Assembly (NCBI GenBank): GCA_016776605.1
Contig: JADHTB010000002.1
Span: 62,001-126,000 of the forward strand
Direction of reading: 5' to 3'
DNA from: Alphaproteobacteria bacterium
GTDB taxonomy: Bacteria > Pseudomonadota > Alphaproteobacteria > GCA-2731375
Length of the DNA: 64,000 nt
This document shows, in pieces, positions 31,825-41,473 of this stretch (position 1 is the stretch's first letter; each line of letters begins with the position of its first letter). The position numbers and the translations under genes were made by a program. The notes beneath the pieces are model-generated. The model saw only the letters and a program-made list of their open reading frames with translations. It did no database searches and had not been told where the DNA came from.

Positions 31825-33042
31825 TTAAATCACTCCATTGGCCTGAAATGCCTCGATCTCGTCCGGGCTGTAGCCGGCTTCGGCCAGGATTTCGATGGCA
31901 TGTTCGCCGGGTGCCGCCGGTGGGCGGTCGATGGAGCCGCCGCCATGCGCGAGGCGAAAGCCGGAGCCGACCAGGTTCAAGGTGCCATAGGGGCTTTCCA
32001 CCGATTGCAGGACGTCTCTGTGCTGCAATTGCGGATGCTTCACGGCCTCGGCGATATTACGCACTTGGCTGGCGGGCGCCCCGGCTTCGGCCAGCCGCGC
32101 CTCCCAGGTGGCGATGTCATCTTTGGCGAAGGCGGTTTCGATGATCTGGCGCAGGGCCGGCTCGTTCTCGGCCCGGCCATGCCAATCCGCGAAACGCGGG
32201 TCGTCCAGCAATTCGGGTTGGCCAATGGCCTGCATCAAGGCCTGAAATTGCTTTTCCGTGTTCACCGCCAGGAGCAGATTATCGTCGCCCACCTTGAACA
32301 GATTGGCGGTGGGACGGCGGCTGATGGCCTGGTTGCCGTATTGGCCGTGCACGTGTCCGGTGGTGGTATGTTCGCTGATCAGCGGGGAGAGGAAGGTCAG
32401 GGTGGCATCCAGCATGGAGACATCAATGCATTGCCCCTGGCCCGTATGGCTGCGCTGAAACAAGGCCGAGGCGATGGCGAAGGCCGAGGTCATGCCGCCG
32501 ATGGCATCGCAGACGGCAAATCCGGCCCGTGTCGGCCCCGTGCCTTCATGTCCGGTAATGGACATGATGCCTGATACCGCCTGAATACGGCCATCGTAGG
32601 AAGGCGTATTGCGTTCTGGACCGTTTTGGCCAAAGCCCGACACCGCGCAATAGATCAGCCGGGGATTGATCGCCGCGAGCGCTTCATAGCCAATGCCAAG
32701 GCGGTCCATGACGCCGGGGCGGAAATTTTCCGTTACCACATCCGCCGTTTTGACCAGGCGTTTGACGATTTCGACGGCGGCCGGGTCCTTCATATCCAGG
32801 GCGATATTGCGCTTGTTGGCATTGATCGCCAGCCAACCAGGCGCCATGCCCCGGTCGCTCCATTCCTTGGACAGGGGGCCGTTGCGCATTTCCTCGCCGC
32901 CCGGCCGTTCCACCTTGATCACGTCGGCGCCCAGCAGGGCCAGTTGGAAGCTGCCGAATGGGCCGGCAAAGACCTGGGTGAAATCAAGCACCCGTATGCC
33001 TTCAAACGGCTTAGCGGATTGCCCGGTCGATCCTTCGGTCAT
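31825..33042 (-). CDS. CaiB/BaiF family CoA-transferase (class III)
   Basis: 405 residues. The N-terminal CoA-site signature VLDFTQVFAGPFGSFQLALLG, with IKVERPGGEEMR, is followed by the catalytic aspartate in SYDGRIQAVSGIMSI (about residue 148), as in formyl-CoA transferase. It moves CoA between carboxylic acids in the cytosol. Donor and acceptor are unknown. It lies 19 bp downstream of the first selenoprotein candidate on the same strand, so the two are probably co-transcribed. Confidence 0.93.
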   Translation of the reverse strand: MTEGSTGQSAKPFEGIRVLDFTQVFAGPFGSFQLALLGADVIKVERPGGEEMRNGPLSKEWSDRGMAPGWLAINANKRNIALDMKDPAAVEIVKRLVKTADVVTENFRPGVMDRLGIGYEALAAINPRLIYCAVSGFGQNGPERNTPSYDGRIQAVSGIMSITGHEGTGPTRAGFAVCDAIGGMTSAFAIASALFQRSHTGQGQCIDVSMLDATLTFLSPLISEHTTTGHVHGQYGNQAISRRPTANLFKVGDDNLLLAVNTEKQFQALMQAIGQPELLDDPRFADWHGRAENEPALRQIIETAFAKDDIATWEARLAEAGAPASQVRNIAEAVKHPQLQHRDVLQSVESPYGTLNLVGSGFRLAHGGGSIDRPPAAPGEHAIEILAEAGYSPDEIEAFQANGVI

Positions 33043-33061: not shown

Positions 33062-34021
33062 TCACTCTGCGGCGTCGGGCCGCGCCGCATCGTCCCGGCG
33101 TTCCTTGGCAATTCTTTTCACCTCGTCGAATTCAGCCCGGCGGCGGGCGATTTCCTCGGCCGGAATTCGTTCGATATTCTGGAAATCCAGTTTCCATTCG
33201 CCATTCCTGTTCCAGCGCTGCGGCGATTGCCGCGTGGTGCGCGGCCCCGTGGCGCTGGCCAGTAAATCCAGCGCCAGGGCCAGGGTTTCTTTCTGGGAAT
33301 TCAGCTCGTCGGGCTTGCCGGCGGCATTGCCCAGGGGAAAGTCACTGAACAGGAAGCGCGGCACGCCGCACAGTTCAACAATATCCTTGGCACAGCCCAT
33401 GATTACGGTGGGAATGCCGTTGGCTTCCAGGTAACGCGCTGTCAGACTCACGGTCTGATGGCACACGGGTCAAGCCGCGACGAGGATCGCCGCTTCGGCG
33501 CCATCTTCGCGTAGACGGGCCAGGACGTCGGGGCAATCCTGTTCCAGGGTGGCCTGTTGGCTGCGGTTGGTCGGGGTGCCATGAAAGCGCGGTGCCAGCG
33601 CCCCGATCCGGCCTTCCTGGGCGGCGATTTTTAACTGTGCCAAGGGGAAATAGCTGTTGAGGTCGGCGGCGGTGGTATATTTCCGATCATAGCCGAGATG
33701 GGAAATCCGCAGATCTGGTGCGCTGTCCACCAGGTCGGAATAGACCCGATAGAACTTGGCCGAAGCATTGTATGCGGCACCCGGACCTTGATCGCCCTTG
33801 TCGGGCTGATAGGGGGCCGCGGTGACGACCAGGCCGACCTTGGTTTCGCCAAGGGGTTTTGCCAGCGGCGTGAATGGCACCTCGTTATATTGCGCCCAAC
33901 GGTAGGGGTTGCCATAGCCAAGTGCGAGATAATAATCCCGCAACCGTTGCATGTAGGGCACCGGCCTATCATGTTCGGCGGCGAAACCCAGGTCGCCGTT
34001 GTCTATCCCACGTTCATTCAT
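33062..34021 (-). CDS. GrdB/PrdB-family selenoprotein candidate 1 (in-frame TGA read as Sec)
   Basis: One reading frame on the minus strand broken only by TGA at 33470-33472. Read as selenocysteine it gives 319 residues with Sec at 184 in the motif AAUPVCHQTV (U-x-x-C). Frame and similarity continue on both sides: before it GYDRKYTTAADLNSYFPLAQL and GRIGALAPRFHG, after it YLEANGIPTVIMGCAKD and FLFSDFPLGN. These match the glycine/sarcosine/betaine/D-proline reductase selenoprotein B family. A SECIS-like hairpin follows the UGA directly. ATG 34021 is preferred (AAGGTG upstream); GTG 34030 is possible. The C-terminal 40 residues are charged. A second gene at 40563 has the same break at the same residue, which argues against a random nonsense mutation. 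The reaction is unknown; reductive cleavage or thiol redox chemistry is a guess from the family. Confidence 0.82.
33434..33466 (-). promoter_or_regulatory. Putative bacterial SECIS element 1
   Basis: Starting 3 nt after the UGA, the mRNA folds as GUGUGC-CA-UCAGAC-(CGUGA)-GUCUGA-CA-GCGCGU. This is a 6-bp upper stem, a 2x2 internal loop and a 6-bp lower stem with G-U pairs. The apical loop holds GU with the G at +19 from the UGA, in the window used for bacterial SECIS recognition by SelB. Confidence 0.72.
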
Positions 34022-34186
34022 CAGAAACACCTTTCGTGAAATTTTCGTGCTGCGTCAATGTAGCACATTTCGCAGGATAAACTGATGGGAGACTCAGGGC
34101 GCGAGTGGCGTTACATTGACCCGGAACAAGAAACCAAACGATGAAGGCCGGGCGCATAGGCGCCCGCAAGGAAGGATAGGTAAGAG

Positions 34187-35478: not shown

Positions 35479-36564
35479 ATGGCAATCGATGATTGGTTCT
35501 CGGCCAGCTATGGCGCGGCGCGGGCGAAATTTCTGGCGGCGGCCAAGAAGGCGGGCGCCACTCTGCAAAGCTATCCCCATCCCCTGAAAGGCCCTGATGG
35601 CGGCGATTTGGCAATGGATTTGGCCTATCTGGGCCCTAAAGATGCCAAACGGGTTCTTATCACCGCGTCGGCCACCCATGGGATTGAAGGTTTTTGCGGT
35701 TCCGGCTGTCAGATTGGTTTTCTGGAGTCCGATCTGCACGCTGAATTGCCCGGCGATATGGCGGTGATGCACGTGCATGCCCACAATCCGCATGGCTTTG
35801 CCCACCAGCGCCGGGTGACCGAAGACAATGTTGATTTGAACCGTAATTTTGTCGATTTTGCCAACCCTCTGCCCGACAACCCGGCCTATGACGAGGTTCA
35901 CCCCTGGCTGATGCCCGCCGATTGGGACGGCCCGGCCCGGCAGGCAGCCGACGCCGCGATCGCGGACTATATCGCCCGGAATGGTATGTTTGCCTTTCAG
36001 GCAGCGGTAAGCGGCGGCCAGTATCGCCATCCCGACGGCCTGTTCTACGGCGGTCAGGCCCCAACCTGGTCACGGCAAACCATAGAGGCCGTGGCCAGGG
36101 AATATCTGGGCGGACGCAGTCATGTGGCGTTGATTGATTTTCATACCGGCCTGGGACCCAGGGGGCATGGCGAATTGATTTCGGTTGATCTGCCGGGCGG
36201 GGCCGAACATCTGCGTGCCGTTGCCTGGTTTGGCGATGAGGTGCGTATTCCTGGTTCCGGTGATAGCGTTTCGGCCAAGGTCAACGGCACCATGGAGGCC
36301 GGCTATCACGCCCAGTTGAAGGATACGGAAAGCACCACCATAGCCATCGAATATGGCACCTTGCCGTCCGACCAGGTGTTGGGCGCCTTGCGTGCGGACA
36401 ATTGGCTGTATCTGCATGGCGACGTGGCCTCGGAAATGGGTCAGACGATCAAGCGGGAGGTCCGCGCCGCATTCTATGGCGAGGATCACGAATGGTACGT
36501 AAATGTCTGGGATCGGGGCCTGGATATAGCACGCAAGTCCGTGCGGGGCCTGGCTGACAGTTGA
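35479..36564 (+). CDS. DUF2817 family M14-like zinc hydrolase (copy 1)
   Basis: 361 residues, cytosolic (no signal peptide). The M14 carboxypeptidase-like zinc motif is ATHGIEGFCGSG (H-x-x-E, about residue 69), with the second histidine in LIDFHTGLGPRG (about residue 221). A general-base glutamate lies in TIAIEYGTLP, and VDLNRNFVDF is conserved. The substrate is unknown, probably an amide or peptide. It is paired with an equal-length paralogue that begins at its stop codon. Confidence 0.87.
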   Translation: MAIDDWFSASYGAARAKFLAAAKKAGATLQSYPHPLKGPDGGDLAMDLAYLGPKDAKRVLITASATHGIEGFCGSGCQIGFLESDLHAELPGDMAVMHVHAHNPHGFAHQRRVTEDNVDLNRNFVDFANPLPDNPAYDEVHPWLMPADWDGPARQAADAAIADYIARNGMFAFQAAVSGGQYRHPDGLFYGGQAPTWSRQTIEAVAREYLGGRSHVALIDFHTGLGPRGHGELISVDLPGGAEHLRAVAWFGDEVRIPGSGDSVSAKVNGTMEAGYHAQLKDTESTTIAIEYGTLPSDQVLGALRADNWLYLHGDVASEMGQTIKREVRAAFYGEDHEWYVNVWDRGLDIARKSVRGLADS

Positions 36565-37646
36565 CCGCCACCGAGGTGAATGCGTCTTATTTTCGCCCGG
36601 ACTATGCCGCCTGCCGGGACTATTTCCTGACTTTGGCCAAGGCTTCGGGCGGAGAATTGCTGCGGGCTGATAATCCCGCGCCCGGACCGGACGGCATTGC
36701 GTTGAGCACCGAGTTCCTGCGCCTGGGCCGACGGGATGCCGAACGCGCCCTGATCTTGGTATCGGGCACCCATGGGGCCGAGGGCTTTGCCGGCTCCGCC
36801 ATTCAATGCGCCTGGCTCGAAGCTGCCGGGGAAGCTACTGGGGCAGCGTCTTTGCCGGATAATATGGCCGTGCTGCTGGTGCATGGCCTGAATTCATTCG
36901 GCTTTGCCCACGGGCGGCGGGTCAATGAAAACAATGTGGATTTGAACCGGAATTTCATCGATCACGAAGCCGAACATCCGCACAATGAGGGCTATGCCCA
37001 AATAGGCGAGGCCATGGCGGCGACGGCCCTGGATGGTCCTGTGCGGGTGCGGGCCGATGCCGCGTTGGAACGCCTCCGGGCGGAGATGGGTCAATTGAAC
37101 GTCATGCGCGCCATCGGCGGGCAATATGATGCGTCCGAGGGGATGTTTTACGGCGGCCGGGTGCCGGTCTGGTCCAACCGGGCCCTGCGGGAATTTTTGC
37201 CCGAATTTTTGCCGCATGTGAAACTGGCGGCTTATGTGGATATCCATACCGGACTGGGGCCATCGGGCTATGGCAGCCCCATGTGCTATCACCACAAAGG
37301 CACCGAAGCCTATGATCTGGCGCGGTCCTGGTGGGGCAAGGATATGACCGCCGCCGCATCCAAGATCAATCACGGCAAGTCCGGCCATGGCGCCATGGAG
37401 GCATTGGCCCCAGCCCAGGTCGTTTGCCTGACCCTGGAATTTGGCACGCTGCCGTTCGCCGAAGTATTGGCCGCCCTGCGCGATGAGCATGCCCTGTGGT
37501 GGCACGGCAAGGAACGGGATGGCAGCGCTATTAGAAAGGCGTTCAAGGCCGCCTTTTACCGCGACGACCCGGAATGGCAAGGCAAGGTGGTCGAACGCGG
37601 CCTGCAAATCGCGGCGGATACCATTGCGGGTTTGCGAGATCTTTAG
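36561..37646 (+). CDS. DUF2817 family M14-like zinc hydrolase (copy 2)
   Basis: 361 residues, the same length as copy 1. The start is TTG 36561, forming a TTGA overlap with the upstream stop. Zinc and catalytic motifs are kept: GTHGAEGFAGSA, VDLNRNFIDH, YVDIHTGLGPSG and CLTLEFGTLPF. The flanking sequence differs clearly from copy 1, so this is an old tandem duplication with probably divided substrate range. An AT-rich gap follows. Confidence 0.86.
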   Translation: MTATEVNASYFRPDYAACRDYFLTLAKASGGELLRADNPAPGPDGIALSTEFLRLGRRDAERALILVSGTHGAEGFAGSAIQCAWLEAAGEATGAASLPDNMAVLLVHGLNSFGFAHGRRVNENNVDLNRNFIDHEAEHPHNEGYAQIGEAMAATALDGPVRVRADAALERLRAEMGQLNVMRAIGGQYDASEGMFYGGRVPVWSNRALREFLPEFLPHVKLAAYVDIHTGLGPSGYGSPMCYHHKGTEAYDLARSWWGKDMTAAASKINHGKSGHGAMEALAPAQVVCLTLEFGTLPFAEVLAALRDEHALWWHGKERDGSAIRKAFKAAFYRDDPEWQGKVVERGLQIAADTIAGLRDL

Positions 37647-40562: not shown

Positions 40563-41378
40563 TTATTTTTTCAACTGCTTGGCCAGGGCCTCCGATGTTG
40601 TCTCGCCGGCGAAATAGACGAAATCATCATCCCATTGCAGGGGCAGATCGACCAGAATGCCGGGTTCCTGTGCGGTGACGGCAAAATCCAGCGCTGCGCG
40701 CAGGATTTTTGTCTGCATGGCGCTATCGCCCGCCCGCCCGAAGGTATTGCCCATGGGGAAATTGACGAACAGGCTGCGCGGCGGTCGCACCAGGGCGGTG
40801 ATGTCGCGTCCGGTCGAAACGGTGACGGTTGGAATGCCGCTCTCTTCAACAACTCTCGCTACCAGACCCACGGTCTGATGGTCGAGGGGTCAAGCCGGTA
40901 TGGCGATCAGCAGGTCTACGCCGTCCGCCTTCAGCGCCTCGACAAAGGCGGGGGCGGATTCCCCGATCACCTTGCTACGGTTATAGGTCCGGCCCATGAA
41001 GCCGCTCCACAGCCGGTTTGCAACCGCGCCAATCTCGCCGGCTGCCGCCAATTCGGCCAGTCGGTCGACGGGGAAGAGGCAGTTGAGGTCCCGGTCCGCG
41101 TCCGCATGATCGTAATAGCTGTCGTGGATCTGGTATTGGTCCAGCGGCGTACCGGGATCGATCGCATCGACCCGGTGATCGTTGCGCGCGTCCGGGTCGA
41201 ACGGCGGGGCGGCGCAATGGGAAATGCCGCCGCTGACCAGCATGCCGACGGTGCAGTCCGCCAATGGCTTGGTCAGTGGGGTCCATGGCGCGCTGTCATT
41301 TTCGCTCCATTTATAGGGCGGAAAACCCATGGCGCCGTATTTATTGTTCAGGGCATCGACATAACGGATCGGTTCCAT
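40563..41378 (-). CDS. GrdB/PrdB-family selenoprotein candidate 2 (in-frame TGA read as Sec)
   Basis: A continuous minus-strand frame interrupted only by TGA at 40890-40892. Read as Sec it gives 271 residues with Sec at 163 in IPAUPLDHQTV. It is paralogous to the gene at 33062 over its whole length: PWTPLTKPL, DADRDLNCLFPVDRLAELAAAGEIGAVA in two parts, VVEESGIPTVTVSTGRD, SLFVNFPMGN. The cysteine of the U-x-x-C motif is aspartate here. The start ATG 41378 has a strong AAGGAGG site (41389-41395). A SECIS-like hairpin follows the UGA. It is monocistronic. Alternative explanation: a pseudogene, disfavoured by the intact frame after the TGA and the matching break in the paralogue. Confidence 0.82.
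40855..40886 (-). promoter_or_regulatory. Putative bacterial SECIS element 2
   Basis: Three nt after the UGA the mRNA folds as CUCG-ACC-AUCAGACC-(GUG)-GGUCUGGU-AG-CGAG. The apical G is again at +19. The upper stem is almost identical to SECIS 1 while the lower stem differs in sequence but still pairs. Confidence 0.72.
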
Positions 41379-41473
41379 TCCCGAACGCCTCCTTTGTGTA
41401 ACTGCGGGTAGGCGAACATCCTACAACCGCGCCAAAGGCGGCGCAAATCCGGCACGTACCGATCCTCCCGAAA

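Follow-up and report, generated by a model that had tools for sequence, protein, structure and literature searches.

Gene organization at the locus

The window, meaning here the whole 64,000-nucleotide stretch of alphaproteobacterial DNA that was analysed, carries two genes of the PrdB/GrdB type, each with an in-frame TGA (Table 1). The gene under study lies at 40.5 kb; its ends had been placed correctly by an earlier note on this DNA, which did not give the strand, and the gene is on the minus one. Under the standard code its frame is split into a 162-aa ORF and a 102-aa ORF starting with GTG. When TGA is read as selenocysteine (Sec), a protein of 271 residues results. As that note had stated, the frame is intact beyond the TGA, codon 163 being the only one of its kind before the TAA, and the strong ribosome-binding site it described is found as AAAGGAGG, 8 nt ahead of the ATG.

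The paralogue at 33 kb shares 33% identity with the 40.5-kb gene (E 7e-39 for the pair). Their alignment puts both TGA codons in one column, which bears out the earlier claim that the two paralogues are interrupted at the same residue (IPAUPLDHQTV). Both belong to a set of seven PrdB-like paralogues in this 4.6-Mb genome, all of which contain one in-frame TGA. In the genomes of genus relatives the number of matches ranges from 6 to 11, a few being fragments of one gene. The earlier note was right in reading a selenoprotein here and missed both the seven-member family and the fact that the motif is UxxD and not UxxC. Elsewhere in the window, positions 35479-37646 hold two successive DUF2817-type genes of 361 aa each, apparent tandem duplicates; the Pfam check covered the first of the two.

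Table 1. Features of the window and PrdB-like paralogues of its genome
Feature	Position	Strand	Remarks
PrdB/GrdB-like selenoprotein gene (putative)	40563..41378	minus	271 codons; ATG at 41378; TAA stop 40563-40565
TGA codon 163, read as selenocysteine	40890..40892	minus	context IPA-U-PLDHQTV; UxxD motif
Predicted bacterial SECIS stem-loop	40855..40886	minus	evidence: folding energy; codons frozen among Sec homologues; stem disrupted in those with Cys; a single compensatory pair
Shine-Dalgarno AAAGGAGG	41387..41394	minus	8 nt 5' of ATG
Paralogue, UPVC (UxxC type)	33062..34030	minus	TGA at 33470-33472; GTG at 34030 is the listed, putative start
Class III CoA-transferase	31825..33042	minus	follows the 33-kb paralogue directly after a 19-nt gap; context only
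PrdB-like paralogues of the genome (G000)			L026/L043, L044, L045, L046, L047, window 33 kb, window 40.5 kb

Conservation of codon 163 and selection on both sides of it

Homologues, selection, a SECIS element, the Sec machinery and its co-occurrence with the gene are the five lines of evidence from which we conclude that UGA163 is almost certainly decoded as selenocysteine. This codon was read in 98 family matches and is TGA in 93, TGC in four and TGT in one, a conservation far above what chance would give. Counting distinct orthologues and near-orthologues, 57/62 have TGA and 5/62 have Cys (TGC or TGT), while in 17 related genomes each match that spans the codon has exactly one TGA. On the tree, Cys arose at this position at least twice, in L087 alone and in a clade of four.

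The two ORFs obtained with the standard code would fit a pseudogene or a split gene, with the TGA a genuine stop and the sequence downstream either a decaying frame or a gene of its own. However, purifying selection is equal on both sides of the codon: pooled over 15 orthologues, codons 1-162 have a pN/pS of 0.18 and codons 164-271 one of 0.20. A search for frameshifts among these orthologues found none, all being in frame, so that neither the neutral pattern nor the frameshifts by which, according to the earlier note, readthrough could be refuted were seen after the TGA. The calculation was done on orthologues and not, as the earlier note had proposed, on the two paralogues of the window, since at 33% identity synonymous saturation is expected. 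Moreover, the TGA is conserved through several phyla, Cys occupies the site in five homologues and the whole read-through protein folds with high confidence in AlphaFold2. On the strength of the selection pattern and of the homologues with Cys we reject the pseudogene or split gene, whose probability is practically nil.

The earlier note had also argued that two independent nonsense mutations at the same codon would be very unlikely. This argument is moot: according to the tree and the alignments, the entire family has TGA as its common state, and the two paralogues therefore share it by descent and are not independent witnesses.

A predicted SECIS hairpin within the coding sequence

An Rfam scan of the window gave no match, and for this reason the SECIS was assessed by codon constraint and covariation. 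The predicted hairpin has the core CAGACC-GUG-GGUCUG at +13 to +27 after the UGA (40863-40877), with the apical loop G at +19. Codons 169-171 are invariant at the synonymous level among the 15 orthologues. Within the subfamily, 56 of the 57 Sec genes use GGT for Gly171, a codon that makes up 22% of the Gly codons in these genes, and the five Cys genes never do. Every Sec gene can form the pair +16/+24, and no Cys gene can (0/5). A CAA codon for Gln168 always comes with TTG for Leu172 (5/5 CAA genes), which keeps the base pair; two further TTG genes retain CAG at Gln168, giving a G-U pair. The CAA/TTG change is found on one alphaproteobacterial branch and on gammaproteobacterial branches of the tree, and thus arose at least twice or once reverted. 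Relative to synonymous recoding, the mean folding energy z is -1.31 and -1.18 in the Sec groups and -0.2 in the Cys group; the window's own hairpin has an MFE of -16.4 kcal/mol (z -2.14). Comparison, not experiment, thus shows a predicted SECIS inside the coding sequence that would guide Sec decoding.

A very divergent PrdB-like branch, represented by L047:6262-6903 and L023, carries UPLC, and the hairpin at the corresponding position has another sequence (GCC-GTG-GGC / AGC).

Selenocysteine machinery

The genome has a tRNA-Sec, a selB match of 408 bits and, 45 bp upstream of selB, selA (584 bits). There are two selD genes: L109 (G000:C32:330101-331027) contains one in-frame TGA and is likely itself a selenoprotein gene, and the other, L110, has no in-frame TGA and lies within a longer frame of 771 residues. 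Of the 26 TGA genomes tested, 25 gave a tRNA-Sec or a SelB match that was at least partial. Neither was found in genome G068, which has a TGA version of the gene (L068), and this is probably due to assembly incompleteness. With respect to the five Cys genomes, two of them, IMCC3096 (complete) and a Burkholderiaceae MAG, gave no SelB-scoring match. The three others (L078, L082, L100) keep SelB; therefore, the change from Sec to Cys was not forced by loss of the machinery.

Comparison alone cannot name the inserted residue, and the UGA might instead be read by a near-cognate tRNA or under a reassigned code, as Trp or Cys. Nevertheless, homologues show Cys and never Trp at the site, the SECIS constraint is confined to TGA homologues, and tRNA-Sec, SelA, SelB and SelD are all present. 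We consider such decoding extremely improbable, an alternative genetic code being rejected on the residues of the homologues and the SECIS constraint. Regarding selenocysteine itself, the earlier proposal of a second, paralogous gene with Sec163 is well supported by the Cys homologues, the SECIS, the machinery and the purifying selection after the TGA.

Family membership and the UxxD subfamily

That the product is both a selenoprotein and a member of the PrdB/GrdB superfamily is, judging from sequence comparison, very probable. It passes the gathering cut-off of the GrdB model PF07355 (24.5 bits against 22, residues 22-158), GrdB being selenoprotein B of glycine/sarcosine/betaine reductase. 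The best curated match is the D-proline reductase Sec protein PrdB, TIGR04483, with 136.8 bits over residues 30-249, a score that does not reach the equivalog cut-off of 300. GrdB-type models differ from the present protein in having about 430 residues versus 271.

The residue at +3 from Sec is Asp or Cys in all family members read. All 62 subfamily members have UPLD (UxxD), the UxxC motif of PrdB being absent, and the Asp (UPLD) clade is monophyletic in the tree with support 98/93. It spans Proteobacteria, Myxococcota, Actinomycetota, Acidobacteriota and Hydrogenedentota.

Marine metagenomes have been a known source of PrdB-like selenoproteins since 2005, with sets from the Sargasso Sea (PMC1088965) and from GOS (PMC2398784). 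With 42 Sec genes in the first set (PMC1088965) and 235 in the second (PMC2398784), they are abundant in marine surface microbes. These proteins are of the same family as the one described here, and their Sec occupies a site of the same type. Published inventories give UxxC only as the motif of PrdB and GrdB (PMC13188914, PMC2398784, PMC1088965), whereas the present subfamily is UxxD, a distinction from the marine proteins that is drawn from the tabulated motifs. No report of a UPLD/UxxD variant was found in a literature search that took in few of the subscription journals. As far as this search reached, the monophyletic, multi-phylum Sec-Pro-Leu-Asp subfamily delineated from sequences appears to be new. 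The gene is thus a solid member of a known family with a new active-site variant and not a new system.

Partner genes and genomic neighbourhood

In clostridia, D-proline and glycine reductases work with a pyruvoyl subunit, and the match to PrdB (136.8 bits, the best curated one) would agree with a true component of such a reductase. In contrast, this score is far under the equivalog cut-off and the motif has UxxD in place of UxxC. Furthermore, searches of the genome (93% complete) for the pyruvoyl protein PrdA and for GrdE/PrdA-type and GrdA genes gave no match, the control genomes being likewise silent in both cases. Since no PrdA/GrdE-type subunits were found, with the same silence in the controls, clostridial pyruvoyl chemistry is unlikely. 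The TauD dioxygenases that adjoin the gene in relatives also point to an aerobic context, and altogether we regard a true reductase component as improbable.

The 40.5-kb gene stands alone in its genome. In five close relatives (L055, L056, L058, L060, L062) the gene is followed immediately, and in the same orientation, by a TauD/TfdA dioxygenase gene; another is found beside the orthologue in L071, and one more beside another paralogue of the window's genome (L044:5484-6341). As this genome has 27 TauD genes, the adjacency is weakly suggestive. Gene neighbourhoods are mostly unconserved beyond close relatives, and a methyltransferase adjoins the gene only in some gammaproteobacterial loci.

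Structural model and proposed mechanism

The AlphaFold2 model of the read-through protein, with Sec modelled as Cys, has a pLDDT of 92.6. In it, Sec163 is located between a predicted strand (156-160) and a helix (164-179), and a loop between strand and helix is a typical site for an activated nucleophile. Sec163, Pro164, His167, Gln168 and Thr169 are invariant in an alignment of 41 sequences that includes three UxxC paralogues. No convincing relative came out of the fold comparison, whose matches were all weak (E no better than 0.0035, Z at most 7.5) and mainly to Rossmann-like folds; an Asp/Glu racemase fold, which had been suspected, was absent among the fold matches listed. Searches of PDB sequences returned nothing convincing, the best E being 0.079 with the single protein and 0.03 with a profile.

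A different role would be that of a thiol peroxidase or detoxifying reductase, in which Sec serves antioxidant defence and not catabolism. Many marine bacterial Sec proteins are redox enzymes (PMC2398784), and the position of the motif, after a strand and before a helix, is compatible with this. On the other hand, no thioredoxin-like fold match was seen in the fold comparison and the neighbours found are mainly catabolic enzymes. This role is unlikely in our opinion, though it deserves consideration.

Regarding the catabolic role, proteins with UxxC usually form a Sec-Cys bridge. In the UPLD subfamily the partner Cys is replaced by an invariant Asp, so that no such bridge is possible at +3. 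From the missing +3 Cys together with the failure to find PrdA/GrdE in searches that stayed silent in control genomes too, we infer a lone selenol acting as nucleophile or reductant. SelB and Sec-tRNA-Sec would decode UGA163, guided by the downstream SECIS hairpin. Sec163 would then attack or reduce a small organic substrate without an intramolecular Se-S bond to +3; Asp166 and His167 may act in acid/base catalysis, and an external thiol could regenerate the selenol. Judging from the CoA-transferase, luciferase-like monooxygenase and TauD/TfdA neighbours, the pathway may be an oxygen-tolerant catabolism of organic compounds. A stand-alone catabolic selenol enzyme is, in its chemistry, a tentative proposal for the 40.5-kb gene. 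Its extension to the UPLD subfamily as a whole, as lone selenol enzymes of aerobic catabolism that have neither a pyruvoyl partner nor a +3 Cys, is conceivable and more doubtful still.

A known enzyme offers a loose parallel. FarB, a GrdB-like protein that takes part in fluoroacetate reduction in Cloacibacillus, likewise lacks the Cys residues that are conserved near Sec, and Sec has been proposed as the nucleophile (PMC10838667). The likeness, a GrdB-type Sec protein in which the Cys near Sec is missing, is drawn by analogy. Unlike the proposed stand-alone enzyme, FarB belongs to a strict anaerobe and acts with FarE and GrdA/C.

Implications

In abundance, PrdB-like proteins rank with the foremost selenoproteins of the sea, and standard annotation would truncate the 40.5-kb gene and its six paralogues at the UGA. 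The UxxD clade, together with its natural Cys versions in five genomes, constitutes a defined set in which the purpose of selenium can be asked. Should a lone selenol enzyme of aerobic catabolism prove to be true, the GrdB/PrdB fold would be seen in a new use, one that lies outside the anaerobic fermentation of amino acids.
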